Shown: positions 1,684-22,009 of the stretch, piece by piece
How positions within the stretch are numbered: the first letter of the stretch is position 1
Layout of the letters: the number at the start of each line of letters is the position of its first letter
From: a virus
Strand: one strand, 5' to 3'
Length of the DNA stretch: 47,865 nt
IMG/VR virus record: IMGVR_UViG_3300032360_000016
Coordinates: 1-47,865 of that record
The notes under the pieces: model-generated
What the model was told of the DNA's origin: nothing
Databases searched by the model: none
Seen by the model: the letters and a program-made list of their open reading frames with translations, nothing else
Translations under genes and position numbers: made by a program

Positions 1684-1686
1684 AGT

Positions 1687-3224: not shown

Positions 3225-4570
3225 TAGCAAGTACCTACTCCACCAGTTGCAGACCATTTATTCGCTAAATATTCGAGAGTGTCATCCCATTCCGTATCAG
3301 TCAATCTACACTTGAAATGTAAATATTCACCGAGAGCAAAACATTCTGCTACTCTGCTAAGGCAGTTATCAGGATGATAATAGCCATAATGACCATTAAA
3401 CCAATCATGGCCGTTAACTGTATCAGATGTACAACGTTGATACCAACGAGATGCGTTACTATAGTACCAAGAGTTATAGGCATCTCGGCAAGCCTGATCT
3501 TTATCAATAAACGTTACATTAAATGTATCTGTAGTAGCAGTATAAGAGATACCAGTACAAATTCTATGACCAACTATACGAGAATCATTTGCATGGTCAA
3601 AATAGGGATTTTGGCCATAATGTCTTGAGTAAGAACCATAGTAAGTACAATCAGATGCATATATATAAAAATGATGGTAGCATGTCGAGTAATAGTCTGG
3701 CTTGTAATACATCCATGTATAACCAGCGTAAAATGGATATCGATAATTGAAATTATGATAAGGAAAACCTCCATAACCACTATTGAACCTAATTATTGTA
3801 TATGAGTAAGGGCCAGAACCACCGCAAGATTGCCAAACCAGAAGTGTCGAATTAGGGTATGCACTTCCACTTGAAACACCCCAAAATGCATTATCTGTAC
3901 AAGTCATAAAAGATTTGAAATCATCTACCCAAAGATAGTTCTGAGAAATACCATTACTTGTTAGTGCTTTAATACAAGCAGTAACATTATCACAAACAGC
4001 TTTAGTTCCACTGCATGCTCTAATTACCTTTAAGCATTGTTGTTCGGCAGCTGCCGAAGTTGTACAAATAGAAGAAATGCCAGAACCCGTACTACATCCA
4101 GAAATATCATAATGTGTCCATAAACAATTAGTTACTGGTGGATCGCAATCACCAGGCGGTGCAGCTGCTGTTCCATAAAAATCACTAAAATCTATTGTAC
4201 CAGATGCTGGCACACCAGTATCTACACCATAATATTCAGTTAATGCATGAGGTGCAGCACCTAAAAATTCAGCACTAATACTTCTATTAGTTCCAGCACT
4301 AGTTCCTAAACTTAATGCACCACTAGATACTATTATAGGGTAATTGGGTTCTCTCAATTCCGACATGCCCAATCCTCGCTCATCTCGATATGGATAAAAC
4401 CCTTTTTCGTTACGACATGCAGCTATGATGGTATTATCTGGTAGAAATAAATCGTAATTGGTCTGACGAACCCTCCCCCATTTTGTATAATAAATGTCAT
4501 TACAATTTGCACAATTATCTGTTGCGTATCTTGGGTAGAAATTCTTAGGATCATTTTTTGGATCTTTCAT
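3224..4570 (-). CDS. Cys- and Tyr-rich fibre-associated protein, possible adhesin
   Basis: This 448-aa protein is not assigned to a named family. Residues about 84-136 carry a motif widespread in phage fibre and structural proteins: RSISAEF, then LTEYYG, GVPASGTIDFSDFYG. This marks it as a virion or fibre component. The rest has striking composition: by eye about 22 Cys and 44 Tyr, with a dense Tyr/His/Phe/Gly stretch near residues 262-330 (YGGFPYHNFNYRYPFYAGY and onward). Cysteines are spread along the whole length, which is unusual for a cytoplasmically made phage protein. It starts three bases after the 5811-aa fibre stop, and its stop overlaps the 78-aa gene start. The place directly downstream of a long fibre recalls the T4 37-38 arrangement, where gp38 assists or tips the fibre, but I see no sequence match to gp38. 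Confidence 0.72.
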   Translation of the reverse strand: MKDPKNDPKNFYPRYATDNCANCNDIYYTKWGRVRQTNYDLFLPDNTIIAACRNEKGFYPYRDERGLGMSELREPNYPIIVSSGALSLGTSAGTNRSISAEFLGAAPHALTEYYGVDTGVPASGTIDFSDFYGTAAAPPGDCDPPVTNCLWTHYDISGCSTGSGISSICTTSAAAEQQCLKVIRACSGTKAVCDNVTACIKALTSNGISQNYLWVDDFKSFMTCTDNAFWGVSSGSAYPNSTLLVWQSCGGSGPYSYTIIRFNSGYGGFPYHNFNYRYPFYAGYTWMYYKPDYYSTCYHHFYIYASDCTYYGSYSRHYGQNPYFDHANDSRIVGHRICTGISYTATTDTFNVTFIDKDQACRDAYNSWYYSNASRWYQRCTSDTVNGHDWFNGHYGYYHPDNCLSRVAECFALGEYLHFKCRLTDTEWDDTLEYLANKWSATGGVGTC

Positions 4571-4573
4571 ATT

Positions 4574-4963
4574 CTACGCACACTTCCTTAGCAACATCTC
4601 TACTTGACAAGTCAAGGTGTTTAATTGTCGTTGTTGTCTCTCAATTACGCATTGCTGTTCTTTCACAGTTTCCACTAGAATTGGTATTATTCTCTCTGGC
4701 TTGACAGTTTTGTATTTTTCCGACCATGACACATCTCTATGTAATTGAGACTCAAATGGTGCTTCCCTTACTGCATCTGGTAGTACTGCTTCTACCTCTT
4801 GGGCAATAAATCCAAATGTCACACCCTTTTCAATCGGATCAAAGCTTAAATTACATTTACGAATATATTGATGATCCCATTCAAATTGCACTCCACGAAT
4901 ATTTTTTATTTTATCAACTGCACAATTAACAGTAATTATATTACACTTCATTCGACAATCAGA
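4574..4963 (-). other. Peptidase S74 intramolecular chaperone domain of the giant fibre
   Basis: The last 129 residues match the endosialidase-type chaperone found at the end of many phage fibres: SDCRMK at the domain start, VQFEWD, GFIAQEVEAVLPDAV, YKTVKPERIIPILVETVKEQ, then a C-terminal coiled coil. In the family the Ser of the SD pair and the following Lys form the self-cleaving dyad; both are present (Ser5683, Lys5688), so the domain probably trimerises the fibre and then cuts itself off. Cysteines occur here too, including three in the final helix. Confidence 0.85.
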
Positions 4964-7900
4964 TGCATAAGCTGTAACATCTCCAGTAGCAAGAACACCA
5001 GCTGAAGCAGCAAGTGCCATAGTATTATCAACTGAAGTTGATGCATTATAACCAATCGCAATTGCACAATCCGCAGTTGCACAAGACCCACTACCAACAG
5101 CTGTTGAGCATATGCCAGTTGCACAAGATTTATGTCCAAATGCATCTGAAAAATTACCAGTTGCACAAGATTTATAACCTGATGCTGTTGAGCATGTGCC
5201 AGTTGCACAAGATTTATAACCAAATGCAGATGAACCTTGGGCAATTGCACAAGAATATACACCCATAGCAGATGAATATGAAGCAGTAGCACAAGAATAT
5301 ACACCCATAGCAGATGAATATGTACCATCTGCCTTTGAATAGTGACCTACTGCAATCGAATTATCACCACTTGTAGAAGCCCAGTAACCAAATGCAGATG
5401 AACCTAGGGCAATTACACATGACAAATAACCAACTGCAGTTGAACTTGTATTAGTTGCACAAGAAGACTTACCAACAGCAGTTGCCCATGCTCCAGTTGC
5501 ACAAGAACAACTACCGACTACCGTTGAATCTACTCCAGTTGCACAACTCTGCACACCAACAGCTGTTGCTTTATCACAGCATGTTTTGTTTTGGAAACCT
5601 GCAGTCATTGAACATTTACCTAATGTATTATTACCATAGCCTAGAGCAGTACTATGAGTTCCGCATAAGGTTTTACAAATACAACTAATAACACCATCAG
5701 ATCCACTTTGTGGCGAGACAGTTTCACCATTAATAAATTTAGTTGTCGTTTTCAACCTTACCCTAATATCATAGGATTCAGTTGCAACTGTTACTGTACC
5801 ACCAGTACCATTAGCAACTGTTAATACATTACCTACAGCATATCCAGTACCACCAGCGGCCAATACCGCGGTTTGAATTACACCACTCCCATCAACAGTT
5901 ATTGTTACTGTTGCACCAGTACCAGCACCGCCTGTTGTGGCTTCTGTACCAGCACTATAACCAGATCCAGCTGACGTTATTGCTTCTAAACTTAAAGCTT
6001 CACCTGTGTTTGTAACACCATATACAAATATATAACCCGTAGCACCAGATGTTCCACCCGTAACGAGTTCAGCATTACCCCAACCAGTAGCACAATTGAC
6101 TCTTATTAATTGATAATCTAAAACAGATGAAGCGCTTCCAAATACCTGTGAATAATATGCACCCCCAAAACCGCACTCCCAATTTGCACTGCGGGCAGCT
6201 ATAATAATTGCGTTGCAATGAGTTGCGTTTGCATAATAACCAATTGCAACTGAGCTAGTTCCACATGCTGTTGAATTTGTACCAAATGCAGATGAACATG
6301 TACCGTATGTTTTTACAGTATAACCAACTGCAGTAGACTTATCCCCAATTGTATGAGTTCCATAACCAAATGCAGATGAATTAGCGCAACACGCTCTCGA
6401 TGACGTACCAAATGCAATTGAATTACTGGCATATGCAATATTATTAATACCAATAGCATTTGAACTGGTATCACATGCAGTATTATTCCGACCAATAGCA
6501 ACTGAACTATTGCCATATGCGTAATTTGTAAAACCAACTGCAGTTGCATATATACTAGTTGCTTTACTCGTAGCTCCAATTGCAAGAGCTCGACAACCAA
6601 CAGCACAAACAGAATCACCTATGGCAACCGCACCTGCCGATTTTGTATTAACAGTAGAAATTAAAGCATAGGTATTATTCTGAGGATCTGAAATATCTTC
6701 CGTTCCAGCAAATAATGTTTGTGACTGATTTGCTATCGTAACCTCATAAGATATAGTTTCAACTTGAACTGTACCATTAGAACCATTAGCTACTGTTAAT
6801 ACATCTAATGATGTATATCCTGTTCCACCATTGGCAATCACTGCGGTTTGAATTTCGCCACTTCCATCGACAGTTATTGTTACTGTTGCACCAGTACCAG
6901 TACCACCTGTTGTAGCTTCTGTACCAGCACTATAACCAGAACCAGATGGTGGTGTTCCTATTAAAGTTAAAGCTTCACCTATGTTTACCAACCCACCTAT
7001 TAGTATTTTACCTCTAGCACCTGTTGTTGCACCTGTAATAAATTCATTCTGAGACCAGCCAGTATAGCAATTGACTGTTAAAACTTGTCTGGAATAAACC
7101 TGTGAATTATAGCCAATATTAACAGAAGCACATGCATTGGAATAAAAATAACCAGCACTATATCCAATTGCAATTGAATACTTATGAGTTGTAGATACAT
7201 TGTAACCTATTGCAAGTGAGTTACATTCACATGCCTTTGCTGAATAACCAAATGCAGTTGCACCTTTGCAAAGTGAACAAGATTGATATCCAATTGCAGC
7301 TGCACAACATGAAGTTGCTTTACTCAGAGCTCCAATTGCAAGAGCTCGACAACCAACAGCACATGAGCTCGAACCTACGGCCATGGCATCCACCGATTTT
7401 GTATTAACAGTAGAAATTAAAGCATAGGTACAATTTGATGCATCTGAAATATCTTCTGTTCCAGAAAATAATATCATTGAAGTATTTGCTATCGTAACCT
7501 CATAAGATATAGTTTCAACTGTTACTGTACCACCAGTACCATTCGCAACTGTTAATACATCATCCACAGCATATCCAGTACCACCAGTGGCAATCACTGC
7601 AGTTTGAATTACACCACTTCCATCGACAGTTATTGTTACTGTTGCACCAGTACCAGCACCACCTGTTGTGGCTTCTGTACCAGCACTATAACCAGAACCA
7701 GCTGACGTTATTGCTTCTAAAGTTAAAGCTTTACCTATTATAGTTCGAGTTACTATTCTACCTGTAGCACCCGTTGTTGCACCTGTAAGAGTTTCATTAT
7801 TAGTCCAGCCAGTACAGCAATTGACTGTTAAAACTTGTTGAGAAAAAACATTTGCATTATAACCAAATGCAGATGAATTACATGCCTGTGCACGCGTATT

Positions 7901-10900
7901 ATTAATTCCAACAGCCGTCGCATTGTTGTGCGTTGCACAAGTACCAAAACCAACTGCAAGTGCACCTGTACCATATGCTTTTGCTGAATAACCAAATGCA
8001 GATGAATTATTACCAGTTGCATTAGAACTACGACCGACTGCAGTTGAACTTGTAGCAGTAGCAATTGCTGTATAACCAAATGCAGATGAATTATTACCAG
8101 TTGCACAAGAGTTGTAACCAAATGCTGATGCACTAGAACCAGTTGCACAAGATCCAAAACCAAATACTTGTGAATTTGTAGCAGTAGCACAAGATTTATA
8201 ACCAACTGCAGTTGAACCTTGTCCAGATGCGCTATCGCATACACCAACTGTAGTTGAATATTGCCCAGTTGCATGAGAACAATGACCAAATGCGTGTGCA
8301 CAATGAGTATCTGCAGAAGAACAACTACCGACTACCAGTGAAAAACAACCAGTTGCAACTGCTAGATAACCAAATGCACTTGCTTCACATGCAGTTGCAC
8401 AAGATAGATAACCAAATACAGAAGAACAATGACCAGTTGCCTGTACTTGATAACCAACACCCGTTGCATTTGTTCCAGTGACAGTATTCCCAACGCCAAC
8501 ATTACTAGTACAGACAAATGGAGTTTCCATGCAAGTAGTGGAACAAGAGATAGTAGAACAGAAACTTGTGCAAGCACCAGTAGGACAAACAAAGGTAGCT
8601 GCAAATCCTGTTTCTGTCATTCCACCACCACCCGGCAGGTTTGTTAAGTTTGAACCATCTCCATAAAATCCTGTTGTAGCACAGAAGACCTTTGATTGCA
8701 CACAACATGCACCAAGTACCATCTGGCATGCAGCAGCTGCAGCTGTACAGAACCCTATTGCTGTTGCACCAATAGCCGTTGCACAAGATTTATAACCGAA
8801 TGCAGATGAACAAACACCAGTTGCAGAAGAATAACGACCAGATGCAGTTGAATCTACCTCAGTTGCACAAGAATAGTGCCCAAGTGCAGATGAATTATTA
8901 CAAGTTGCCTTAGCCAACAGACCAAACGCAGATGAACCTACACCAGTTGCACAAGAACACAAACCAATTGCAGTAGAATTTATACCAGATGCATAAGATT
9001 TATAACCAGATGCAGATGAATTCTGACCAGTTGCCTTTACTTCCTTACCAAACGCAGATGAACAACACTCAGTTGCACAAGATCCAAAACCAACAGCAGT
9101 TGAACAATTACCAGTTGCCTGAGAAGAAATACCAGCAACAAATGCATTTGTTCCCGATTCGGTATTTCCAACGCCAACATCACTAGAAACTACTTTTGGA
9201 GTCTCTACGCAAGTAGTGGCACAAGAGATAGTAGAACAGAAACTTGTACAAGCACCAGTAGGACAAACAAAGGTAGCTGCAGCTCCTGTTTCTGTCATTC
9301 CACCTGTAGATGGGAGATTTGTTAGATTAGATCCATCGCCATAAAATCCTGTTGTAGCACAGAAGACCTTTGATTGCACACAACATGCTCCAAGTACCAT
9401 CTGGCGTGCAGATGCAGCTACAGCATAATAACCAACTGCTGTTGCTCCCTCGGCAGTTGCACAAGAAAAATGACCAAATGCAGATGAATTATTACCAGTT
9501 GTACAAGATTTATATCCTGATACAGTTGACCAATCACCAATTGCACAAGAACTTTTACCAAATACAGATGAACTTGGGCCAATTGCACAAGATAAGAAAC
9601 CAAATGCAGATGATCGAGTACCAGTTGCTTCCACCACAGAACCAACAGCAGCTGCCCACATTTCAAGTGCACAAGAAGTTTGACCAACTGCAGCTGAACA
9701 ATTACCAGTTGCACAAGACTTATATCCAGATGCAGTTGAACCTATACCAATTGCACAAGACTTATATCCAGATGCAGTTGATTTAGCTCCAGTTGCCTGA
9801 GAAGAAATACCAGCAACAAATGCATTAGTTCCCGATTCGGTATTTCCAACACCAACATTAGTAGTACAGACAAATGGAGTTTCCATACAAGTAGTAGTAC
9901 AAGATATAGTAGAACAGAAACTTGTGCAAGCACCAGTAGGACAAACAAAGGTAGCTGCAACTCCTGTTTCTGTCATCCCACCACCGCCACCAGGCAGGTT
10001 TGTTAAGTTTGAACCATCTCCATAAAATCCTGTTGTAGCACAAAACACCTTTGATTGCACACAACATGCACCAAGTACCATCTGGCATGCAGCGGTTGCT
10101 TCTGCTTCAAATCCTATTGCTGTTGCTCCCTCGGCAGTTGTACAAGATTTATATCCAAATGCTTGTGAACAATGAGCAGATGAAAGTGCACTAGTATAAT
10201 ATCCAACTGCGGCAGAACAACCACCAGATGCAGTTGTTACACGACCAATTGCCAATGAATAGGCTGCAGTTGCATTTGCCGTTGAACCAAATGCAGATGA
10301 TCTTGAACCACTTGCAATAGCCGGACTACCAAATGCAGTTGAACTTGTATTAGTTGCACAAGATTTATATCCAGATGCAGATGAACTTCCACCAGTTGTA
10401 CATACACATTGGCCAATGGCAGTAGAACGACTACCAGTTGCACAAGTTAAATAACCAATTGCAGTTGACAATACACCAGATGCGACTGCTTTATATCCAG
10501 ATGCAGATGAACCAAAACCAGTTGCTTGCGTACAAATTCCTACTGATAAACTTCCACAAGCAGTAGAACAGGTACATGCCCCAATCGCAATTGAGGGTAA
10601 ATAGTAATCTGTAGTCGTATCACATCTAAATCCGTTAGATGCAAGAGTACAAAATCCTATGGATATATTTGCTTCTGGACATTGATTAGTCGCTCCAGCA
10701 AATGGAACTGTGATTGCATTATGCCCTATTGCTAAATCATTAATTCCACATGCTACTGAACTCTTACCAAATGCAACCGAACTTGTTCCAGTAGCACAAG
10801 ATTGATAACCAGATGCAGTTGAACAATCAGCAGTTGCACAATCCCTATATCCTGATGCAGTTGCAAAAGTAGCAGTTGCACAAGATTTATAACCAGATGC

Positions 10901-13900
10901 TGAAGATCTAATTCCAGTTGCTAATGAAGAATATCCAAATGCAGATGAATTTGCACCAGTTGCCTGTACTTGATAACCAACACCCGTTGCATTTGTTCCA
11001 GTGACAGTATTCCCAACGCCAACATTACTAGTACAGACAAATGGAGTTTCTATACAAGTAGTAGTACAAGATATAGTAGAACAGAAGTTAGCACAAGCAC
11101 CAGTAGGACAAACAAATCCTGCATCAACTCCTGCTTCTGTCATTCCACCTGTAGATGGGAGATTTGTTAAGTTTGCACCATCTCCAATAAAACAAGTTGC
11201 TTTAACATTTCCAGCAACGTCTAATTTTTGTGCTGGTGCAGTACATCCGATGCCGAGGTTTCCAGACTTATCAACAGTGATTTTATTAACGCCATCACCA
11301 TTGTCAATCTGTAATAAATTTGAATCTTTGTATATCTGTACATCTGTAACGGCGTTTGTAAGAGCCGAATCGACCACAAAAGTATCAGCATCAGTGACAG
11401 TTGCTACAGTAAATTTCTCAAATGCACTAGCTGCACCACTAGGTATTTTAACTGAATCACCAACAGAAAGACCATGTGCAGTGGATGCTATACTAGTTCC
11501 AGTACTTGTTGAAGTGGTATCCGTCATTGCTAGATGTATAGATCCCTTGATGTGCAAATCAGAAGTCGGGGCTGAGATTCCTATACCGATACAACACCCA
11601 CCAAGCACCAATGCATATGGGGTTGATGCAATTGCACAGTAACCTATTGCTGCTGTATAACAACTACTAGCACAAGACTTATAACCAACCGCAGATGAAA
11701 ACGCACCAAGAGCACAAGAGTAAGAACCAAATGCAGTTGCACATGAATTACTTGCACAAACTTGTTGACCAAATGCAGCTGAATTATTCCCAGATGCTTT
11801 TGAATTGTGACCAAATGCCGATGAAAATGCAGTAACTGCACAAGATAAACTACCAAATGCTTGTGAGTAATCAATAGTTGCACAAGACTTCCAACCAAAT
11901 GCAGATGATTTCGCACCAGTTGCACAAGATTTATATCCAGATGCAGATGAACACGCACCAGTTGCACAAGATAAGTAACCAAATGCAGATGATCTTGCGC
12001 CAGTTGCTTGAGTACAAATTCCAACTGATAAACTACTACAGGCAGTAGAACAACTACATGCTCCGATTGCGATTGATGGATGATAAGTATCAGTAGTATC
12101 ATCACACCTAAATCCATTTTGTGCTATAGTACAGAATCCTATAGATATATTTGCTTCTGGACATTGATTAGTTGCTCCTGCGAATGGAACAGTGATTGCT
12201 GTGTATCCTATAGCAAGATCATAAAGCCCACATGCTACAGAAAAACTACCAAATGCTGATGAATTTGTAGTGATTGCACAAGATGATCTACCAATGGCAG
12301 TTGAATTTGAAGCAGATGCACAAGACCTGTGACCAAATGCTGATGCATAATCTCCAGTTGCATGAGAACAATAACCGACTGCAATTGAAGTAAAGCATGT
12401 TGCTTGAGCATCCCTACCAATAGCAACGGAACTTTGACCAGTTGCTTTTGAAAAATAACCAAATGCAGATGTATCTGTGCCAGTTGCACAAGACTTATAT
12501 CCAGATGCAGTTGAACAATTACCAGTTGCCTGTACTTGATAACCAACACCCGTTGCATTTGTTCCAGTGACAGTATTCCCAACGCCAACATTACTAGTAC
12601 AAACAAATGGAGTCTCTATGCAAGTAGTAGAACAAGAAATAGTAGAGCAAAAACTGGTACATGATCCAGTAGGACAAACAAAGGTAGCTGCAACTCCTGT
12701 TTCTGTCATTCCACCACCACCACCCGGCAGGTTTGTTAAGTTTGAGCCATCTCCATAAAATCCTGTTGTGGCACAAAACACCTTTGATTGCACACAACAT
12801 GCACCTAACACCATCTGGCATGCAGCTCCAGCTACTGCTTCAAATCCTATTGCAGTCGAACCAAGACCAGATGCAGTAGAACTTTTACCAAATACAGATG
12901 AATCTGCGACAGTTGCACAAGAACTACGACCAACTGCAGATGAATTTGCACCAGTTGCACAAGAGTAGTATCCAAATGCAGATGAACAAGCACCAATTGC
13001 TTTAACTCTAACACCAACAGCAGTTCCAGATGCACCAGAAACAGATGCACCACAACCAATAGCAGTTCCTCGACTAGCAGCTGCCGTTGTATTAGAATTA
13101 TAACCAATAGCAGTTGAATATGCTCCAGATGCAGTTGCTAAGTAACCAGATGCTGTTCCTCGACTACCAACTGCACAAGCACGATAACCAAATGCAGATG
13201 AATTTATAGTGATTGCACAAGACTTATATCCTGATGCAGTTGATTGAGCTCCAGTTGCACAAGATTGATAACCAAACGCAGATGATCTTGCACCAGTTAC
13301 TTGCGTACATATTCCTACTGATAAACTCCCACAAGAAGTAGAACAAGCACATGCCCCTATCGCAATTGATGGTACATAGTAATCTGTAGTATCATCACAC
13401 CTATATCCGTTAGATGCAAGAGTACAAAATCCTATGGATATATTAGCTTCTGGACATTGATTCGTTGCTCCAGCAAATGGAACTGTGATTGCTGTATAAC
13501 CTATTGCAAGATCATATGTTCCACATGCTACTGAACTACGACCAAATGCAGATGAATCTACTCCAGTTGCAGAAGATTGAGTACCAACAGCTATTGAACA
13601 ATTACCACTTGCAATTGGATAAAAACCAATTGCCGTTGAACCCAAAGCAGTTGCTTGAGGAGCAGTACCAAATGCTGATGTTTGGGATGAAAGTGATTTT
13701 GCTACATAACCAACAGCTGTTGAGTAAGCACCTTGTGCACAAGAACTACGTCCGATAGCAGTTGAATTCAACTGCGTTGCATAAGAACTACGACCAAATG
13801 CAGATGAATCTGCTCCAGTTGCTTGAGTACAAATTCCAACTGATAAACTACTACAGACAGTAGAACAAGCACAAACTCCTATTGCAATTGATGGATGATA

Positions 13901-16900
13901 AGTATCTGTAGTATCATCACATCTGTATCCGTTACTTGCTATAGTACAGAATCCTATAGAAATATTAGCTTCTGGACATTGATTGGTTGCTCCAGCAAAT
14001 GGAACAGTGATTGCTGTATATCCTATTGCTAAATCATTAATTCCACATGCTACAGAACTACGACCAAATGCAGATGAACCTGTTCCGATTGCACAAGATT
14101 TATACCCAGATGCAGTTGCCCTCGAACCAGTTGCCCTCGAACTCCTACCTAATGCAGATGAATGTATGCCAGTTGCACAAGATCCAAAACCAACAGCACT
14201 TGAACAATTACCAGTTGCAGTGGAAAAATAACCAACAGCAGTTGCGGAATTACCAGAAGCTGTTGACATATAACCACTTGCAGTTGAATGATTACCAGTT
14301 GCACAAGATTTAAATCCACCAACAGCTGTTGCTCCAGTTCCAGTAGCATAAGCACATCTACCTATTGCAAGACTTGCATTTGCAGATGCACAAGATTCTG
14401 TACCAAACACACTTGCCCCATATGCAGAAGCAGTAGTACAAACCTTAACACCAACAGCATTAGATAATCCATGACCAACACAAGAACAAACCCCGACTGC
14501 AAGACTGCAATTGTTACTTGTATTATCAGAAGTTTTACAAGCCTTATGCCCCAATGCAACAACGTATTCCCCATTTGCTAAAGTAGAAAAACCAATTGAT
14601 ACTGATTGATTCCCAGTTGCCTGAGAAGAAATACCAGCAACAAATGCATCAGTTCCCGATTCAGTATTTCCTACACCTACGTTAGTGGTACAAACAAATG
14701 GAGTTTCCATACAAGTAGTGGAACAAGATATAGTAGAGCAAAAACTGGTACATGATCCAGTAGGACAAACAAATCCTGCAGCAACTCCTGTTTCTGTCAT
14801 TCCACCTGTAGATGGAAGATTTGTTAAGTTTGCACCATCTCCAATAAAACAGGTTGCTTTAACATTTCCAGCAACGTCTAATTTTTGTGCTGGCGTTGTA
14901 CATCCGATGCCGACATTACTTCCGCAAGCAGTTAATGTATCCCATTTAGATGCATTCCCAAAATGTGCTGGAGTTGTACCAAGATTACCATGAATTGTTG
15001 CTCCACTTGTACCTTGCATAAATGCACAAGCATAACCAGAACAATCTGTCGTGATAATATACCCACCAACAACATCTAATTTCTGTGCTGGCGATACAGT
15101 TCCGATGCCGACATTGCCAGACTTATCAATAGTGATTTTATTAACGCTATCACCATTGTCAATCTGTAATAAATTTGAATCTTTGTATATCTGTACATCT
15201 GTAACAGCATTTGTAAGAGCCGAATCGACCACAAAAGTATTTACATCAGTGACAGTTGCTACGCTAAATTTTTCAAATGCATTTGAAGCTCCACTAGGTA
15301 TTTTAACTGAATCACCAACAGAAAGACCATGTGCAGTGGATGCTATACTAGTTCCAGTACTTGTTGAAGTGGTATCCGTCATTGCCAGATGAGTCGAGCC
15401 CGTAATATGTAAATCAGAAGTCGGGGCTGAGATTCCTATACCGATACAATACCCACCAAGAACCAATGCACATGCAGTTGATGCTACTGCATAATAACCA
15501 ATTGCTGTTGCTCTAGCGGCAATTGCACAAGAACTACGACCAAATGCACTTGAATCTACTCCAGTTGCACAAGAATAGTAACCAGATGCAGTTGATCTAG
15601 TGCCAGTTGCACAAGAATTTTTACCAACAGCTGTTGCACCCCATTGTGTTGCACAAGAATAAAGACCGAATGCAGATGCACTATCACCACTTGCAATAGA
15701 TAAATTACCAAATACTTGTGAGTAATCACCAGTTGCCTTTGCACTTCTACCAAATGCAGATGATACAGTACACAATGCACAAGAATAATGACCAAAAGCA
15801 GATGCTTGAACTCCAGTTGCACAAGAATAGTAACCAACTGCAGTTGAACCTACACCAGTTGCACAAGAGAAGTAACCAAATGCAGATGAACCTGTACCAG
15901 TTGCCTGAGAAGAAATACCAGCAACAAATGCCGATGATCCAGATTCCGTATTTCCAACGCCAACATTAGTAGTACAGACAAATGGAGTTTCTATACAAGT
16001 TGTAGTACAAGAGATGGTAGAACAGAAGCTAGTACATGATCCAGTAGGGCAAACAAATCCTGCATCAACTCCTGTTTCTGTCATTCCACCTGTAGATGGG
16101 AGATTTGTTAGATTAGATCCATCGCCATAAAATCCTGTTGTAGCACAAAACACCTTTGATTGCACACAACATGCACCTAACACCATCTGGCATGCAGCTG
16201 CAGCCTCTGCTTCAAATCCTATTGCTGTTGCACCAATAGCCGTTGCACAAGATTGATAACCAAATGCAGATGAACACGCGCCAGTTGCACAAGAATACCT
16301 ACCAACTGCAGATGAACTTGTTCCAGTTGCAACAGAATCATAACCAAGTGCAGATGCACCAATTCCACTTGCACAAGAATCATAACCAAATGCAGACGCT
16401 GAAATTTGAGTAGCACATGACAAATAACCAACTGCAGTTGTAGAACTAGAAGTTGCACAAGACCTAAAACCAAATGCAGATGAACCACTACCAGTTGCTT
16501 GCGTACAAATCCCAACTGATAAACTTCTACAAGAAGTAGAACAAGCACAAACTCCTATTGCGATTGATGGCATATACCAATCTGTAGCCGCATCACATCT
16601 AAATCCATTTTGTGCTATAGTACAAAATCCTATGGATATATTTGCTTCTGGACATTCATTGGTTGCTCCTGCATAAGGAACTGTGATTGCTGTGTATCCT
16701 ATAGCAAGATCCTTAATCCCACATGCTACTGAACTCTCACCAAATGCAGATGAACTTATACCAGTTGCACAAGATTTAAAACCAACTGCAGTTGAACATT
16801 GACCAGATGCACAAGAACTTCGACCAAATGCTTGTGAATCGTGACCAAGTGCCCTTGATGAATAACCAGATCCAGTTGATCTTACACCACCTGCACAAGC

Positions 16901-19900
16901 GAAGTAACCCATTGCAGTTCCTTGACCGCCAGATGCTTTAGATGCATAACCAAATGCAGATGAATATGAACCAAATGAACAAGATTGATATCCAACGACA
17001 GTTGAACAACCCCCAGTTGCACAAGACCACCAACCAACAGCTGTTGAATTTGCACCAATTGCACAAGTTAAATAACCAAGTGCGTTTGAACATAACCCAA
17101 TTGCACAAGATTTAATACCAAATGCACTTGAATAATATGTAATTGCCTGAGTGCATATTCCTACCGACAAACTATTACAAGAGGTTGAACAGGCACAAGA
17201 TCCAATCGCGATTGATGGTACATAGTAATCTGTAGTATCATCACACCTATATCCGTTACTTGCTATAGTACAGAATCCTATAGAAATATTAGCTTCTGGA
17301 CATTGATTAGTTGCTCCAGCAAATGGAACTGTGATTGCTGTATACCCTATTGCAATATCCCTACAACCACATGCTATTGAACAGGCACCAAATACCGATG
17401 ATCTTTGACCAGTTGCACAAGATTGATAACCAGATGCTGTTGCAAATGCAGCCGTTGCACAAGAACTACGACCGACAGCAGATGAACTTAATGCAGTAGC
17501 ACAAGATTGATAACCAAATGCTGAGGCACAAGCAGAAACTGCACAAGATTTATAACCAGATGCAGTTGCTCTTGCAGAAGCATTACCAGTACAAGATTGA
17601 TATCCAACGGCAGTTGAACAACTCCCACCTGCATGAGATCGATAACCAAATGCACTTGCATAATGTGAAGTAGCACAAGATAAACTACCAAATGCTGATG
17701 ATCTATTTTGAGTTGCACAAGATTGATAACCAGATGCTGTTGAACATAAACCAGTTGCACAAGATTTAATACCAAATGCATTTGAATAATGTGCAATTGC
17801 CTGAGTGCATATTCCTACCGACAAACTATTACAAGAAGTAGAACAAGAACATGATCCTATCGCGATTGATGGCAAGTAGTAATCTGTAGTCGTATCACAT
17901 CTGTATCCGTTAGATGCAAGAGTACAAAATCCTATGGATATATTAGCTTCTGGACATTGATTGGTTGCTCCAGCAAATGGAACAGTGATTGCTGTGTATC
18001 CTATTGCTAAATCATTAATTCCACATGCTATAGAACTACGACCAAATGCAGATGAATCTACTCCAGTTGCCTGAGAAGAAATACCAGCAACAAATGCATC
18101 TGTTCCAGATTCCGTATTTCCAACGCCAACATTAGTAGTACAGACAAATGGAGTTTCCATACAAGTAGTGGAACAAGATATAGTAGAGCAAAAACTGGTA
18201 CATGATCCAGTAGGACAAACAAATCCTGCAGCAACTCCTGTTTCTGTCATTCCACCTGTAGATGGGAGATTTGTTAAATTCGCACCATCTCCAATAAAAC
18301 AGGTTGCTTTAACATTTCCAGCAACGTCTAATTTTTGTGCTGGTGCAGTACACCCGATGCCGACATCACCGGCACTGATCGTTACATCTGCACCAGAGAA
18401 GGATATATCATCTGAATTTATTTTAAGTTTATTACTATCTGAATAATCAATACCAATTAATGCTTTACCCACACCTGTTTCATAAAAAAGAATCCCTGCA
18501 TCAGAACCTTTTGATTTGAGTGACATTAATGCTTCAGATGTAGTTGCAGTTGTTTCAAGAATAAGATTAGCTTGCTCTGTACTACTCAACACATGCAATT
18601 CAGCACCTGGCGATGTAGTTCCGATGCCGACATCACCACTAACTGTTAAATCACCACTAACAGTAGATGTAATAAATCCATAGGAATTATTCCATCCTGT
18701 ATTTCCATCAGTTATATAGGCAGCGCCATTAGTAAGTTGATTATTATTGGTAATATAATTAGCATTAGTAGCTCCAGTAAATCCAAGATTGGCTAAAGTC
18801 ATTGTTCTTGTTGCCATACTTGTTACATGCCCATAGGTATCCAGATCAATATCAGAAACCACATTAGCACCAGTAAGAGCCGTTAAACTTGCTTGACTAG
18901 ATGTATCTGCATGACTCAAAGTACCTGTAGATGTAATGGTTCCACCTGTCAAACCACCACCTGTTGCTACTGAAGTGACTCCTGATGTTGTGACATAACC
19001 AGCACCATTGGTAAGTTGATTATTATTGGTAATATAATTAGCATTAGTAGCTCCAGTAAATCCAAGATTGGCTAAAGTGAGAGTTCTAGTACCTACAGTT
19101 CCATTAGCATCAGTTACATGACCCAGAGTATCAGTTGTTACATTAAAATCCAAGTCACTAATAACAACTGCACCTGTTAATGCTCCAGTATCTACACTTA
19201 TATCATCTCCATCTGCGGATGGATGAACATAATTATTAGCATTACTTGGAGCATGAGCAGCCTGTGAGTGTGTATATGCCGTATTTGCTTGCGTGGAAGT
19301 ACCATCAGTCCAAGTAACAACTCCATTGACATGCAATTTTGTACTCGGTGCTGTAGTTCCGATGCCGACATTGCCAGCATTGGTAATTCGCATCGCTTCA
19401 GATGACGCAGTTCCTCCATCAGCGGTAGTGTAAAAAGCTATCCTTCCAGGCATATCCCCACTAGCTGCTGTACCATCGACTTCCATTAAGATTGATGCAG
19501 CTTCCTGATAAGCGGAACCGTCATAGCCGTAAGCTTGAATGGCAACGATATCTTGGTTGACCGTAACAAGAGCGGGGCCAGCTTTAGCCCTATAAAACTG
19601 CAAGCGATTAACATCCGCATCTGCTACTATCTGCATTCTTAAATCGACATTTGACGTACCATATATATGCAGTTTTTCCTGTGGTGCAGTAGTTCCGATG
19701 CCGACATTGCCATCTTTGTCAATTCTTAATCTTTCAGTTGGTAACACATTTGAAACACTAGGTCTTGTCGCAACTACAAATTCACCAGTGCCAGCTGTAG
19801 CCCAATTCGTTATTTGTGCGCCAAACTCCACTGGAGAGATACTAGTATTATTGTCAGTATGATAACCAACCCCAATTGTTTGATAACTTCCATCAGTATA

Positions 19901-22009
19901 TGTAGAATCGTATTCATCCCCACCTAATCTAATATATGGTTTCCCATAAGTATTAGGTAGATTGGCATTACCTGCTGTACCACGGGAAAAAATAGCAACT
20001 ACATCATCAACATCATCTGTGTCCACATGCAAAGTTGCATCTGGCGATGTTTCTCCGATGCCGACATTTGCACCACTAGTACTGTTTAATCGTAAAGGAT
20101 TTCCTTCCAATCTTAATGGGGTATATGCATTTCCACCATAAGAATCAATATAAGCATCAGTACAATTTGCTTGTATAAATAATCTATGATTACTAGCACC
20201 ATTTCCCCCACCAATCTGAATACCTCCACAAGTGGCAGTACAATAAACATGCAAATTTGTCAAATTTGATATCGATGCAGTTCCGATGCCGACTCTACCA
20301 GCACTATTAATAATCATTCTATCTACAGAGGCAACATTTATTCGGAAGGAATCATCAGCACCCTCATTTCTTATATAACTCTTATTACTACCACCTTCAT
20401 TAAAGTTTATATAAGAATCAGACCCTGCAGCTGCATTAATAACAATTCCACCATCACCACTACCACCTGTATTGACACATACTGTTCTACATGCCGTACA
20501 AGTGACATTTGTTGCTGTAGTCCAACCGGCAGCTGCAGAAATACCAGTTATATTGGAACCATCGCCATAGAATCCTGTAGTAGCACAAACTACTGGTGCT
20601 TTAAAACAAACACCACTATTAACTGATCCAGTACCACAAAAACAAAAATTTCCAGCAGCTGTATAAAACTGTAATCCAGATGAATTATTATAACTATTAA
20701 CATATGCCCAACCATTATCATCATAAACTCCAGTTAGCAAATAGTTATCACCCGAACCAAGTAAACATAATCTCCTATTTGCACCCTCTGCTTTCAGACG
20801 AACTCCAGATATATCAACACAAGTAGTAGTACAAGAGATGGTAGAACAGAAGCTAGTGCATGATCCAGTAGGACAAACAAAGGTAGCTGCAGCTCCTGCT
20901 TCTGTCATACCGCTACTAGGAAGGTTTGTTAGATTTGATCCATCGCCATGAAATTCAGTTGCTATCATACATGCAGATGCACATACATCACCAGTAACAG
21001 ATAATCTATGGGAAGGAGATACATCTCCGATGCCGACATTGCCAAGAAAGTTAATACAACCAGCTTGAGTTATATTATAGACTTGAACATCAGTACCGTT
21101 TTGATTATGTGACCACAACCCAAGAGTATTTGCATCACCTGATCCGCTACCACAATATTCCCAATGAAAACCATATTCTCCTGACCATCCACTATTCCAC
21201 TGAAGCACATCACTAAATCCCCAACAAACATCTCCATTATTAGTAATAATACCTGATGCATCACCATCAGGAACATATACAATAAGTCTTCCATCTGCCG
21301 CTGTAGTTCCGATGCCGACATTGCCAGAAGTATCCATATTAAAACCACTACACCATGCTATTGCTGAACCTACTGCAATTCCACTTTCATAATTGAGACT
21401 AAACCTGTCAAGACATTTTCTAATTTGAAAATTACTTCCAGCATCAGTTGAATACCAACCAGTTTCCGCATCATTCATATATGAATCAAAACCGATAGCG
21501 ATGTTATCAACATCATATGACATTAATGTAAGTCTTGTAGTATTTACATTCCCTGCCGTTTCTGTCAATTTTATATTAGGCGTATGGCTTCCAGCCGTTC
21601 CTGTAATGTCTAAATTTGCAGTTGGCGTTGTAGTTCCGATGCCGACTTTGCAAGTAGTTGTAGTTTTATTTGTTCCTGTAGTCCAACCGGCAGCTGCAGA
21701 AATACCAGTTATATTGGAACCATCGCCATAGAATCCTGTTGTAGTACAAGAGATGGTAGAACAAAAACTGGTGCATGATCCAGTAGGGCAAACAAAGGTA
21801 GCTACAGCTCCTGCTTCTGTCATACCGCTACTAGGAAGGTTTGTTAGATTTGATCCATCGCCATGAAATTCAGTTGCAGTAATATTGCCAGTGACGGTGA
21901 GATTATCAAGCTTGATTGTACCATTGGAATTTACTAATTCAAGTGCATTAGATGAAGCATTATCAAGGTAGGTTTTTTCTGCTCCAAAATTAAATCTATA
22001 TTGTGCCAT
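4574..22009 (-). CDS. Giant 5811-aa tail fibre with YadA-like repeats and S74 chaperone
   Basis: One uninterrupted frame of 17.4 kb, very large for a phage gene. Three regions can be seen. Residues 1 to about 1300 contain fibre-shaft repeats of the VGIGTT-P...L-V-G type, joined by HGDGSNLTNLP linkers. Residues about 1310-5670 are dominated by 14-residue YadA/trimeric-autotransporter head repeats (SSAFGYQSCATG type), broken into blocks by recurring linkers and by three Gly-rich inserts. The C-terminus from about Ser5683 is a peptidase-S74 intramolecular chaperone (SDCRMK; FGFIAQEVEAVLPDAV). The protein should form a long trimeric fibre used for host attachment. Cysteine is very frequent, about 9 in a sampled 100 residues. 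AGGAAG lies upstream of the ATG, 12 bp after the sulfotransferase stop. Whether it is a lateral or central fibre cannot be told. Confidence 0.88.
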   Translation of the reverse strand: MAQYRFNFGAEKTYLDNASSNALELVNSNGTIKLDNLTVTGNITATEFHGDGSNLTNLPSSGMTEAGAVATFVCPTGSCTSFCSTISCTTTGFYGDGSNITGISAAAGWTTGTNKTTTTCKVGIGTTTPTANLDITGTAGSHTPNIKLTETAGNVNTTRLTLMSYDVDNIAIGFDSYMNDAETGWYSTDAGSNFQIRKCLDRFSLNYESGIAVGSAIAWCSGFNMDTSGNVGIGTTAADGRLIVYVPDGDASGIITNNGDVCWGFSDVLQWNSGWSGEYGFHWEYCGSGSGDANTLGLWSHNQNGTDVQVYNITQAGCINFLGNVGIGDVSPSHRLSVTGDVCASACMIATEFHGDGSNLTNLPSSGMTEAGAAATFVCPTGSCTSFCSTISCTTTCVDISGVRLKAEGANRRLCLLGSGDNYLLTGVYDDNGWAYVNSYNNSSGLQFYTAAGNFCFCGTGSVNSGVCFKAPVVCATTGFYGDGSNITGISAAAGWTTATNVTCTACRTVCVNTGGSGDGGIVINAAAGSDSYINFNEGGSNKSYIRNEGADDSFRINVASVDRMIINSAGRVGIGTASISNLTNLHVYCTATCGGIQIGGGNGASNHRLFIQANCTDAYIDSYGGNAYTPLRLEGNPLRLNSTSGANVGIGETSPDATLHVDTDDVDDVVAIFSRGTAGNANLPNTYGKPYIRLGGDEYDSTYTDGSYQTIGVGYHTDNNTSISPVEFGAQITNWATAGTGEFVVATRPSVSNVLPTERLRIDKDGNVGIGTTAPQEKLHIYGTSNVDLRMQIVADADVNRLQFYRAKAGPALVTVNQDIVAIQAYGYDGSAYQEAASILMEVDGTAASGDMPGRIAFYTTADGGTASSEAMRITNAGNVGIGTTAPSTKLHVNGVVTWTDGTSTQANTAYTHSQAAHAPSNANNYVHPSADGDDISVDTGALTGAVVISDLDFNVTTDTLGHVTDANGTVGTRTLTLANLGFTGATNANYITNNNQLTNGAGYVTTSGVTSVATGGGLTGGTITSTGTLSHADTSSQASLTALTGANVVSDIDLDTYGHVTSMATRTMTLANLGFTGATNANYITNNNQLTNGAAYITDGNTGWNNSYGFITSTVSGDLTVSGDVGIGTTSPGAELHVLSSTEQANLILETTATTSEALMSLKSKGSDAGILFYETGVGKALIGIDYSDSNKLKINSDDISFSGADVTISAGDVGIGCTAPAQKLDVAGNVKATCFIGDGANLTNLPSTGGMTETGVAAGFVCPTGSCTSFCSTISCSTTCMETPFVCTTNVGVGNTESGTDAFVAGISSQATGVDSSAFGRSSIACGINDLAIGYTAITVPFAGATNQCPEANISIGFCTLASNGYRCDTTTDYYLPSIAIGSCSCSTSCNSLSVGICTQAIAHYSNAFGIKSCATGLCSTASGYQSCATQNRSSAFGSLSCATSHYASAFGYRSHAGGSCSTAVGYQSCTGNASARATASGYKSCAVSACASAFGYQSCATALSSSAVGRSSCATAAFATASGYQSCATGQRSSVFGACSIACGCRDIAIGYTAITVPFAGATNQCPEANISIGFCTIASNGYRCDDTTDYYVPSIAIGSCACSTSCNSLSVGICTQAITYYSSAFGIKSCAIGLCSNALGYLTCAIGANSTAVGWWSCATGGCSTVVGYQSCSFGSYSSAFGYASKASGGQGTAMGYFACAGGVRSTGSGYSSRALGHDSQAFGRSSCASGQCSTAVGFKSCATGISSSAFGESSVACGIKDLAIGYTAITVPYAGATNECPEANISIGFCTIAQNGFRCDAATDWYMPSIAIGVCACSTSCRSLSVGICTQATGSGSSAFGFRSCATSSSTTAVGYLSCATQISASAFGYDSCASGIGASALGYDSVATGTSSSAVGRYSCATGACSSAFGYQSCATAIGATAIGFEAEAAAACQMVLGACCVQSKVFCATTGFYGDGSNLTNLPSTGGMTETGVDAGFVCPTGSCTSFCSTISCTTTCIETPFVCTTNVGVGNTESGSSAFVAGISSQATGTGSSAFGYFSCATGVGSTAVGYYSCATGVQASAFGHYSCALCTVSSAFGRSAKATGDYSQVFGNLSIASGDSASAFGLYSCATQWGATAVGKNSCATGTRSTASGYYSCATGVDSSAFGRSSCAIAARATAIGYYAVASTACALVLGGYCIGIGISAPTSDLHITGSTHLAMTDTTSTSTGTSIASTAHGLSVGDSVKIPSGASNAFEKFSVATVTDVNTFVVDSALTNAVTDVQIYKDSNLLQIDNGDSVNKITIDKSGNVGIGTVSPAQKLDVVGGYIITTDCSGYACAFMQGTSGATIHGNLGTTPAHFGNASKWDTLTACGSNVGIGCTTPAQKLDVAGNVKATCFIGDGANLTNLPSTGGMTETGVAAGFVCPTGSCTSFCSTISCSTTCMETPFVCTTNVGVGNTESGTDAFVAGISSQATGNQSVSIGFSTLANGEYVVALGHKACKTSDNTSNNCSLAVGVCSCVGHGLSNAVGVKVCTTASAYGASVFGTESCASANASLAIGRCAYATGTGATAVGGFKSCATGNHSTASGYMSTASGNSATAVGYFSTATGNCSSAVGFGSCATGIHSSALGRSSRATGSRATASGYKSCAIGTGSSAFGRSSVACGINDLAIGYTAITVPFAGATNQCPEANISIGFCTIASNGYRCDDTTDTYHPSIAIGVCACSTVCSSLSVGICTQATGADSSAFGRSSYATQLNSTAIGRSSCAQGAYSTAVGYVAKSLSSQTSAFGTAPQATALGSTAIGFYPIASGNCSIAVGTQSSATGVDSSAFGRSSVACGTYDLAIGYTAITVPFAGATNQCPEANISIGFCTLASNGYRCDDTTDYYVPSIAIGACACSTSCGSLSVGICTQVTGARSSAFGYQSCATGAQSTASGYKSCAITINSSAFGYRACAVGSRGTASGYLATASGAYSTAIGYNSNTTAAASRGTAIGCGASVSGASGTAVGVRVKAIGACSSAFGYYSCATGANSSAVGRSSCATVADSSVFGKSSTASGLGSTAIGFEAVAGAACQMVLGACCVQSKVFCATTGFYGDGSNLTNLPGGGGGMTETGVAATFVCPTGSCTSFCSTISCSTTCIETPFVCTSNVGVGNTVTGTNATGVGYQVQATGNCSTASGYKSCATGTDTSAFGYFSKATGQSSVAIGRDAQATCFTSIAVGYCSHATGDYASAFGHRSCASASNSTAIGRSSCAITTNSSAFGSFSVACGLYDLAIGYTAITVPFAGATNQCPEANISIGFCTIAQNGFRCDDTTDTYHPSIAIGACSCSTACSSLSVGICTQATGARSSAFGYLSCATGACSSASGYKSCATGAKSSAFGWKSCATIDYSQAFGSLSCAVTAFSSAFGHNSKASGNNSAAFGQQVCASNSCATAFGSYSCALGAFSSAVGYKSCASSCYTAAIGYCAIASTPYALVLGGCCIGIGISAPTSDLHIKGSIHLAMTDTTSTSTGTSIASTAHGLSVGDSVKIPSGAASAFEKFTVATVTDADTFVVDSALTNAVTDVQIYKDSNLLQIDNGDGVNKITVDKSGNLGIGCTAPAQKLDVAGNVKATCFIGDGANLTNLPSTGGMTEAGVDAGFVCPTGACANFCSTISCTTTCIETPFVCTSNVGVGNTVTGTNATGVGYQVQATGANSSAFGYSSLATGIRSSASGYKSCATATFATASGYRDCATADCSTASGYQSCATGTSSVAFGKSSVACGINDLAIGHNAITVPFAGATNQCPEANISIGFCTLASNGFRCDTTTDYYLPSIAIGACTCSTACGSLSVGICTQATGFGSSASGYKAVASGVLSTAIGYLTCATGSRSTAIGQCVCTTGGSSSASGYKSCATNTSSTAFGSPAIASGSRSSAFGSTANATAAYSLAIGRVTTASGGCSAAVGYYTSALSSAHCSQAFGYKSCTTAEGATAIGFEAEATAACQMVLGACCVQSKVFCATTGFYGDGSNLTNLPGGGGGMTETGVAATFVCPTGACTSFCSTISCTTTCMETPFVCTTNVGVGNTESGTNAFVAGISSQATGAKSTASGYKSCAIGIGSTASGYKSCATGNCSAAVGQTSCALEMWAAAVGSVVEATGTRSSAFGFLSCAIGPSSSVFGKSSCAIGDWSTVSGYKSCTTGNNSSAFGHFSCATAEGATAVGYYAVAASARQMVLGACCVQSKVFCATTGFYGDGSNLTNLPSTGGMTETGAAATFVCPTGACTSFCSTISCATTCVETPKVVSSDVGVGNTESGTNAFVAGISSQATGNCSTAVGFGSCATECCSSAFGKEVKATGQNSSASGYKSYASGINSTAIGLCSCATGVGSSAFGLLAKATCNNSSALGHYSCATEVDSTASGRYSSATGVCSSAFGYKSCATAIGATAIGFCTAAAAACQMVLGACCVQSKVFCATTGFYGDGSNLTNLPGGGGMTETGFAATFVCPTGACTSFCSTISCSTTCMETPFVCTSNVGVGNTVTGTNATGVGYQVQATGHCSSVFGYLSCATACEASAFGYLAVATGCFSLVVGSCSSADTHCAHAFGHCSHATGQYSTTVGVCDSASGQGSTAVGYKSCATATNSQVFGFGSCATGSSASAFGYNSCATGNNSSAFGYTAIATATSSTAVGRSSNATGNNSSAFGYSAKAYGTGALAVGFGTCATHNNATAVGINNTRAQACNSSAFGYNANVFSQQVLTVNCCTGWTNNETLTGATTGATGRIVTRTIIGKALTLEAITSAGSGYSAGTEATTGGAGTGATVTITVDGSGVIQTAVIATGGTGYAVDDVLTVANGTGGTVTVETISYEVTIANTSMILFSGTEDISDASNCTYALISTVNTKSVDAMAVGSSSCAVGCRALAIGALSKATSCCAAAIGYQSCSLCKGATAFGYSAKACECNSLAIGYNVSTTHKYSIAIGYSAGYFYSNACASVNIGYNSQVYSRQVLTVNCYTGWSQNEFITGATTGARGKILIGGLVNIGEALTLIGTPPSGSGYSAGTEATTGGTGTGATVTITVDGSGEIQTAVIANGGTGYTSLDVLTVANGSNGTVQVETISYEVTIANQSQTLFAGTEDISDPQNNTYALISTVNTKSAGAVAIGDSVCAVGCRALAIGATSKATSIYATAVGFTNYAYGNSSVAIGRNNTACDTSSNAIGINNIAYASNSIAFGTSSRACCANSSAFGYGTHTIGDKSTAVGYTVKTYGTCSSAFGTNSTACGTSSVAIGYYANATHCNAIIIAARSANWECGFGGAYYSQVFGSASSVLDYQLIRVNCATGWGNAELVTGGTSGATGYIFVYGVTNTGEALSLEAITSAGSGYSAGTEATTGGAGTGATVTITVDGSGVIQTAVLAAGGTGYAVGNVLTVANGTGGTVTVATESYDIRVRLKTTTKFINGETVSPQSGSDGVISCICKTLCGTHSTALGYGNNTLGKCSMTAGFQNKTCCDKATAVGVQSCATGVDSTVVGSCSCATGAWATAVGKSSCATNTSSTAVGYLSCVIALGSSAFGYWASTSGDNSIAVGHYSKADGTYSSAMGVYSCATASYSSAMGVYSCAIAQGSSAFGYKSCATGTCSTASGYKSCATGNFSDAFGHKSCATGICSTAVGSGSCATADCAIAIGYNASTSVDNTMALAASAGVLATGDVTAYASDCRMKCNIITVNCAVDKIKNIRGVQFEWDHQYIRKCNLSFDPIEKGVTFGFIAQEVEAVLPDAVREAPFESQLHRDVSWSEKYKTVKPERIIPILVETVKEQQCVIERQQRQLNTLTCQVEMLLRKCA
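5662..6118 (-). repeat. Gly-rich insert module, copy 1
   Basis: This segment of the giant fibre encodes GWGNAELVTGGTSGATG, then GSGYSAGTEATTGGAGTGAT, VTITVDGSG and GGTGYAVGNVLTVANGTGG. It interrupts the YadA repeats and is a close copy of segments at 6640-7095 and 7396-7845. Its end differs from the other two copies (TKFINGETVSPQSGSDG). Boundaries are approximate. Confidence 0.75.
6640..7095 (-). repeat. Gly-rich insert module, copy 2
   Basis: Encodes GWSQNEFITGATTGARG, GSGYSAGTEATTGGTGTGAT and GGTGYTSLDVLTVANGSNG, ending EDISDPQNNTYALISTVNTK. The end is shared with copy 3 but not copy 1. The most conserved DNA covers the GYSAGTEATTGG coding part. Confidence 0.75.
7396..7845 (-). repeat. Gly-rich insert module, copy 3
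   Basis: Encodes GWTNNETLTGATTGATG, GSGYSAGTEATTGGAGTGAT and GGTGYAVDDVLTVANGTGG, ending EDISDASNCTYALISTVNTK. It is nearer to copy 1 in the GYSAGTE part and to copy 2 at the end, a mosaic pattern that suggests recombination between copies. Confidence 0.75.
11265..11602 (-). repeat. Long direct repeat within giant fibre, copy A
   Basis: About 338 bp are nearly identical to 15120-15457, with a constant 3855-bp offset and therefore no indels between copies. It encodes the segment from SAPTSDLHIKGSIHLAMTDT to VNKITVDKSGN, an ordinary fibre-shaft segment that splits YadA blocks. Confidence 0.85.
15120..15457 (-). repeat. Long direct repeat within giant fibre, copy B
   Basis: Partner of 11265-11602. 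It encodes SAPTSDLHITGSTHLAMTDT to VNKITIDKSGN; differences are scattered single bases, with a small cluster near 15393-15412. The repeat could support recombination removing or duplicating 3.9 kb of YadA repeats in frame. Confidence 0.85.
21303..21627 (-). repeat. Segment shared between the two giant fibre genes (copy in 5811-aa gene)
   Basis: 325 bp are closely similar to 27198-27522 in the other fibre, equal in length and in the same frame. It encodes TANLDITGTAGSHTPNIKLT, FDSYMNDAETGW, NYESGIAVGSAIAWCSGF and MDTSGNVGIGTT. This is direct evidence that the two fibres exchange or duplicate modules. Confidence 0.85.

Follow-up and report, generated by a model that had tools for sequence, protein, structure and literature searches.

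Cysteine-rich phage fibers encoded beside a GT9-fold glycosyltransferase: candidate acceptors for a thiol-linked glycan

We analyzed a 47,865-base viral contig (IMG/VR record IMGVR_UViG_3300032360_000016, positions 1 to 47,865; hereafter the window) in which two giant tail fiber genes, whose products are 5.7% and 3.1% cysteine, flank genes for a sulfotransferase and for a glycosyltransferase-like enzyme (GT) with the fold of the GT9 heptosyltransferases. Members of this GT family are encoded next to proteins of fiber or beta-roll type that are rich in cysteine, both in phages (T4-like cyanophages, Vibrio schitoviruses and many uncultured ones) and in contigs of Bacteroidota. An earlier note on this DNA had described a ladder of cysteines along the larger fiber and proposed that disulfides or bound metal harden it. 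The ladder is real, but a hardened fiber is not the reading we favor. Instead, the cysteines may be acceptor sites for a glycan that the neighboring GT transfers and that in many cases also receives sulfate or carbamoyl groups, a reading to which we give roughly even odds (about 0.5).

Results

The larger fiber gene (4574-22009, minus strand) translates as a single open reading frame (ORF) of 5811 residues, 330 of them cysteine (5.68%). Its YadA-type blocks, left-handed beta-rolls parsed into 190 layers in contiguous runs, lie at 5010-18106 on the same strand, and both the fold and its extent are as the earlier note had them: PF05658 (YadA_head repeats) matches above cut-off (6e-41 for one fiber piece, with 55 matches across the window), the period is 14 residues, and glycine stands at position 8. 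Layers were numbered after PMC9543794, with 14 residues and glycine at 8, and the counts below refer to the 190 contiguous layers. In the adhesin BpaC, the core of the trimer is made up of positions 5 and 7, positions 3 and 10 are opposed across chains, and equal positions stack with a rise of 4.8 Å per layer (PMC9543794), which agrees with the spacing of about one strand that had been assumed.

When plotted by position, cysteine is not scattered. Positions 1 to 14 hold 6, 16, 30, 0, 0, 0, 0, 0, 1, 25, 0, 89, 1 and 12 cysteines, so that 89 of the 180 fall at position 12 (binomial p ~1e-52), and 179 fall at positions that are outward or in loops (1, 2, 3, 9, 10, 12 and 14). The claim of a cysteine at one fixed place in most units holds as to the column and is slightly too strong as to its frequency, since 47% of layers have cysteine at position 12, with 13-16% at positions 3 and 10. 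Layers without cysteine at position 12 have Lys (15 layers, a replacement that had been pointed out before), Gln (17), Ile, Val, Thr or Ser. Position 7 is F, V or I and position 5 is S, T, L or I. Because positions 5 and 7 form the core, and because position 12 lies on an outer strand where Lys or Gln swaps with cysteine, the side chain at position 12 is probably solvent-facing, and the cysteine rows of the three chains should therefore be far apart.

Cysteines also occur beyond the layers. Linkers add them as had been proposed, FVCPTGSCTSFCSTISC being present and repeated, and outside the parsed units of this fiber cysteine stands at 4.6%. The C-terminal Peptidase_S74 domain, an intramolecular chaperone (4766-4963, minus strand; 9.8e-11), has extra cysteines of its own (SDCRMKCNIITVNCA). 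Within the beta-roll, a repeated insert module (AIGYTAITVPFAGATNQCPEANISIGFCTIASNGYRCD...PSIAIGSCACSTSCNSLSVGICTQA) adds cysteine-bearing loops at fixed intervals; several copies lie in 4574-22009 and one lies in the second giant fiber gene, 24125-37147.

Repeats grow by duplication, and TGT accounts for 296 of the 330 cysteine codons, as might be expected if the enrichment were functionless drift or repeat expansion. We consider this very improbable because the cysteines are restricted by position and because relatives are cysteine-poor: fibers of relatives without the GT have cysteine contents near zero, and enrichment recurs in unrelated phages and in bacteria beside the same neighbor gene.

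A disulfide or metal ladder, in which lysis would let stacked cysteines of neighboring layers join in pairs or take up metal and so stiffen the fiber, is less improbable. The stacking distance suits it, adjacent layers share cysteine at position 12 slightly more often than by chance (45 pairs against 36.6 expected, a mild clustering), positions 3 and 10 carry cysteine in 30 and 25 layers, and bonds among stacked cysteines within one chain are possible. Yet runs of cysteine at position 12 show no pairing and no parity, and the probable outward placement of that position argues against contact between chains. Strong pair signals within layers were rejected as a sign of disulfides, as all could be traced to the duplication of a single insert (SIAIGSCACSTSCNSLSVGICTQA). 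Disulfide and metal-site cysteines are normally a protein's best-conserved residues. Here, with cysteine neutralized in the alignment score, homologues both kept 21, 25, 26, 29 and 4% of cysteine columns against 45, 34, 39, 37 and 60% identity elsewhere, a turnover that favors many interchangeable surface sites. Paralogues of cyanophage S-SSM7 are the exception, keeping 75-84% of cysteines against 54-59%, which speaks for the ladder, and at the C-terminus that contains S74 the two values are nearly equal (60% against 63%). The enrichment also occurs in unrelated folds (coiled-coil-like, glycine-rich and other), where it tracks the GT gene. Because, by sequence, a region in Vibrio phage D505 looks coiled-coil-like and the cyanophage proteins look glycine-rich, cysteine enrichment is not specific to the beta-roll. 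Taken together, these observations make a hardened fiber unlikely.

Two enzymes are encoded between the giant fibers. The GT (22812-23723, minus strand; 303 residues, GGIGK motif, phrog_8954) was modeled with AlphaFold2 from an alignment of 41 relatives at a pLDDT of 92, and its best Foldseek matches in the PDB were the GT9 protein 3tov, heptosyltransferase II (1psw), WaaC (2h1h) and TibC (4rb4/4rap); for the first three, E reached 1e-11 with probability 1.0, placing the enzyme in the GT9 fold. The catalytic-base Asp of WaaF and WaaC (N-terminal GD) appears to be absent: on a profile match that is weak at this site, Lys16 aligns there in 41 of 41 relatives, and Arg takes the position in the P-SSM2/Vibrio branch of the family. 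Because thiols depend less on assistance by a base, the exchange of Asp for Lys would, as far as that alignment goes, fit a cysteine acceptor. The sulfotransferase (22022-22831, minus strand; Sulfotransfer_3, 9e-18) matches Sulfotransfer_3 and Sulfotransfer_1 above cut-off and belongs to the family that uses 3'-phosphoadenosine 5'-phosphosulfate (PAPS).

Fiber relatives differ in cysteine content, and the enzymes differ with them. Searches of phages by tblastn with the cysteine-rich repeats gave no match, probably because of composition filtering, and relatives were located instead by DNA patterns and neighboring enzymes. In IMG/VR, the cysteine-unit pattern was found in three stretches; allowing any residue at the cysteine raised this to 30. 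Some YadA-type fibers are cysteine-rich (L014, L015, L016, L028, L032/L035) and others cysteine-poor (L020, L024-L026, L031, L036, L037, L041, L042). Beside cysteine-rich fibers, L016 carries a GT-like protein (36% identity to that of the window) and L032 a sulfotransferase (33% identity to the window's); L028 carries both enzymes. A GT or sulfotransferase is present in all four cysteine-rich records of at least 30 kb (the window, L016, L028 and L032) and in 0 of 11 cysteine-poor records (Fisher 7e-4), records that are not fully independent and that include, among the eleven, cultured relatives P-TIM40 and S-WAM1 with fibers of another type (2301 and 2616 residues, 0 cysteines). In the 371-kb contig L028, cysteine stands at layer position 5 (TCAIG-SHAEG units), which by BpaC numbering would face the core; either the register is shifted or cysteine may serve another purpose there.

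A profile search with the GT returned 59 IMG/VR loci, 47 of which have a cysteine-rich ORF (at least 200 residues and at least 2.5% cysteine) within 10 kb. At 42 non-redundant loci, 39% of ORFs of at least 300 residues are cysteine-rich within 3 kb of the GT and 18% at 3-10 kb, against a background of 7% at other phage loci. Pfam searches of 135 small ORFs near the GT identified 20 sulfotransferases, the commonest family, along with 14 cytidylyltransferase-like proteins and 13 adenosine 5'-phosphosulfate (APS) kinases. APS kinase makes PAPS, the sulfate donor. Loci L070 and L098 carry a conserved cassette of sulfotransferase, APS kinase-like and cytidylyltransferase-like genes by the GT, which suggests that some phages may make PAPS themselves. 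In AG-345-O18, two proteins of 9.6% and 10.7% cysteine lie near the GT, a carbamoyltransferase, a sulfotransferase and a sugar-nucleotide gene set.

Cultured cyanophages show the same linkage. In P-SSM2, PSSM2_304 and 306 (10% cysteine) are directly upstream of the GT PSSM2_307, carbamoyltransferase 308 and heptose genes 309-313, and they are the only two of 167 ORFs with at least 4% cysteine; S-SSM7 (SSSM7_114-116, 11%) and S-CAM1 (8-12%) are arranged likewise. Four cyanophage genomes without the GT have few ORFs at this threshold (S-SM2 0, P-SSM4 0, S-PM2 1, Syn9 3), none of which are adjacent fiber proteins; of the three in Syn9, one looks like a PAAR-type spike and one like a thymidylate synthase. 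The cysteine-rich protein of S-SSM7 matches 19 records of cultured cyanophages, all of them among the phages with a listed GT, and two marine virus records from single cells; its matches are limited to records that have the GT themselves or that derive from the same cell as one that does. Heptose genes are common to S-SM2 and P-SSM2 (PMC3037559), and S-SM2 has neither the GT nor a cysteine-rich fiber. Some clusters also encode a cupin annotated as cysteine dioxygenase (L115 19349-19705, L116 24021-24422, L117 19223-19576), an annotation made doubtful by a relative in L049 that matches Cupin_2 only, although the cupin may still oxidize cysteine.

Outside the cyanophages, a Vibrio phage tail protein has 4.4% cysteine in SBP1 and 4.0% in D505, where the GT is present, against 1.2% (1.261.O), 0.9% (1.004.O) and 0.45% (PG11) in relatives without it, and SBP1 has in addition a fiber of 9.2% cysteine. 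In pelagiphages, fibers adjoining the GT (HTVC112P 1.85%, HTVC111P 1.48%) compare with related fibers without it (Venkman 0.68%, CRP-1 0.16%, CRP-7 0.12%, SPO1 0.42%). The tail genes of HTVC111P and HTVC112P include one annotated as a lysine-acyltransferase of the RTX-activator type (L123 1240-1647, L055 22452-22838), possibly a second fiber-modifying enzyme.

Relatives of the GT were also found in 21 Bacteroidota contigs from metagenome-assembled genomes, some of which look chromosomal, although the binning is uncertain. Cysteine-rich repeat proteins (up to 8.6%) are present in 14 of the 18 contigs examined, many with a similar sulfotransferase. Two of these proteins weakly match an antifreeze beta-roll family, and a type-IX secretion tail domain is present in a protein encoded close by. 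Across L188-L204, the GT and sulfotransferase, in some cases with an FkbM methyltransferase, lie beside cysteine-rich beta-roll proteins and type-IX-tailed NHL proteins, and the module may here serve bacterial adhesins.

The window itself belongs to a T4-like marine myovirus, judging from its gene content: it encodes T4-like gp13, gp14 and gp15 neck and sheath-stabilizer proteins (2-2427, minus strand), and we assign the fibers to such a phage on this basis. Its gp14 is 45% identical to that of cyanophage P-TIM40, and a gp8-like gene is also present. The minus-strand order is gp8-like, a 2586-residue protein, the 4340-residue fiber, a 101-residue ORF, the GT, the sulfotransferase, the 5811-residue fiber, a 448-residue protein, a 127-residue ORF, gp13, gp14 and gp15. 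The second fiber (24125-37147, minus strand; 4340 residues, 133 cysteines, 3.06%) has the same linkers as the first and ends, toward its C-terminus, in a short block of YadA type. Directly after the larger fiber, the 448-residue protein (3224-4570, minus strand; 22 cysteines, 4.9%) is probably tip-associated; it has no match in Pfam or PHROG, its homologue in L015 (508 residues, 32 cysteines) is 38% identical, and its AlphaFold model reached a pLDDT of 28. High cysteine density in the window is limited to these fiber-type proteins, with 0-0.8% in gp13-15, the gp8-like ORF and the 2586-residue ORF, and 1.9% in the sulfotransferase-like ORF. Small ORFs resembling the 101-residue protein (23757-24062, minus strand) lie near the GT or fiber in L015, L056 and L057, N-terminal sequences having been likened by eye.

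Discussion

We propose that the GT9-fold transferase, kin to ADP-heptose transferases, would link a sugar through sulfur to exposed fiber cysteines, and that the sugar would be decorated further, in the window probably by the sulfotransferase and in relatives also by carbamoyl transfer. The beta-roll would then hold the glycans out in rows, and the resulting fiber, charged and coated with sugar, would have a role in adhesion, solubility or masking. More tentatively, and with less confidence than for the window, the gene neighborhoods suggest a widespread, unrecognized system of phages and Bacteroidota in which a GT9-fold enzyme with Asp replaced by Lys or Arg S-glycosylates, probably heptosylates, surface cysteine arrays of fibers and beta-roll adhesins, with sulfation or carbamoylation to follow, yielding glycan-coated phage fibers. 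Literature searches, which left subscription journals largely outside, found no paper on cysteine-rich phage fibers or on their linkage to the GT.

Several observations weigh against cysteine glycosylation. Because linked genes have a common ancestry, the records outnumber the independent events; 12 of the 59 GT loci have no cysteine-rich neighbor; and no clear sequence motif surrounds the cysteines (~1.9-fold enrichment at most). Short cysteine-rich contigs (L014, L015, L046, L047, L009) lack the GT, and L032 has the sulfotransferase without it, although fragmentation may explain both. Most cysteines are kept among the S-SSM7 paralogues, the alignment of Lys with the catalytic Asp comes from a weak profile match, and nucleotide-heptose genes are absent from the 47,865-base window. 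The GT and sulfotransferase could also act on another target.

Such a target figures in one alternative, in which free surface thiols themselves act on the host surface, by thiol exchange or by contacts of soft-metal or hydrophobic type, and the enzymes have their substrates in the host envelope or elsewhere on the virion. The confinement of cysteine to fiber-type proteins and exposed positions is compatible with it, and phage lipopolysaccharide (LPS)-type genes have previously been read as host-surface genes, with their function left open (PMC3037559). It leaves unexplained why cysteine-rich and GT-bearing loci coincide in both phages and bacterial contigs, and we judge it unlikely, slightly more so than the disulfide or metal ladder. 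Lower still, we would rank modification other than glycosylation, such as S-sulfonation, lipidation or oxidation of the thiol, carried out by linked enzymes other than the GT. The prevalence of sulfotransferases near the GT (20 of 135 ORFs), the GT-less sulfotransferase of L032, and the cupin in the P-SSM2, S-SSM7 and S-CAM1 clusters (annotated as cysteine dioxygenase in P-SSM2) lean that way, but it is the GT rather than the sulfotransferase that is common to the cyanophage, Vibrio and pelagiphage cases.

If glycosylation of fiber cysteines is borne out, tailed phages would bring their own machinery to decorate receptor-binding fibers at cysteines set aside for this purpose. Little is known of such a layer in the way marine phages adhere to and recognize their hosts. 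A transferase able to modify thiols on beta-roll proteins that are already folded would, in that case, also be a useful enzyme.

The components have precedents that differ from the proposed system in instructive ways. Like the heads of YadA and BpaC, the larger fiber has 14-residue layers with an invariant glycine at 8, a hydrophobic residue at 7, small residues at 4, 6, 11 and 13, and PF05658 matches (phmmer against BpaC, 9.8e-25), but it is a phage fiber with an S74 C-terminus and cysteine at position 12 in nearly half of its layers. It is not a trimeric autotransporter adhesin, as its C-terminal piece matched YadA_head repeats and Peptidase_S74 only, with no match to the YadA membrane anchor. 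The GT shares its fold and a C-terminal DSxxxH motif with the GT9 LPS heptosyltransferases WaaC and WaaF, but it lies among fiber genes and has Lys or Arg in place of the Asp base. Sugar on cysteine is known bacterial chemistry from glycocin S-glycosyltransferases of the sublancin SunS type, which are of another enzyme family and target short peptides rather than fibers. SunS-type enzymes belong to GT2.

A closer functional parallel is TibC/AAH with TibA/AIDA-I, in which a GT-B transferase gene serves to hyperglycosylate a repetitive, beta-structured adhesin (PMC4358343). TibC and AAH are bacterial autotransporter heptosyltransferases (BAHT), which act on Ser and have a four-cysteine iron finger and a beta-hairpin thumb, TibC having the catalytic-base Asp (PMC4358343). 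TibC matches the window GT in Foldseek at ~13% identity only, and we rejected BAHT membership because the GT has just 2 cysteines where the iron finger needs four; it also has Lys near the catalytic-base position. Finally, the 'LPS gene clusters' of P-SSM2, S-SSM7 and S-SM2, whose functionality was left open (PMC3037559), contain the same heptose, carbamoyltransferase and GT genes, except that S-SM2 lacks the GT, and what is added here is a candidate target, supplied by their linkage to cysteine-rich fiber proteins, which would give the clusters of P-SSM2 and S-SSM7 a concrete job.

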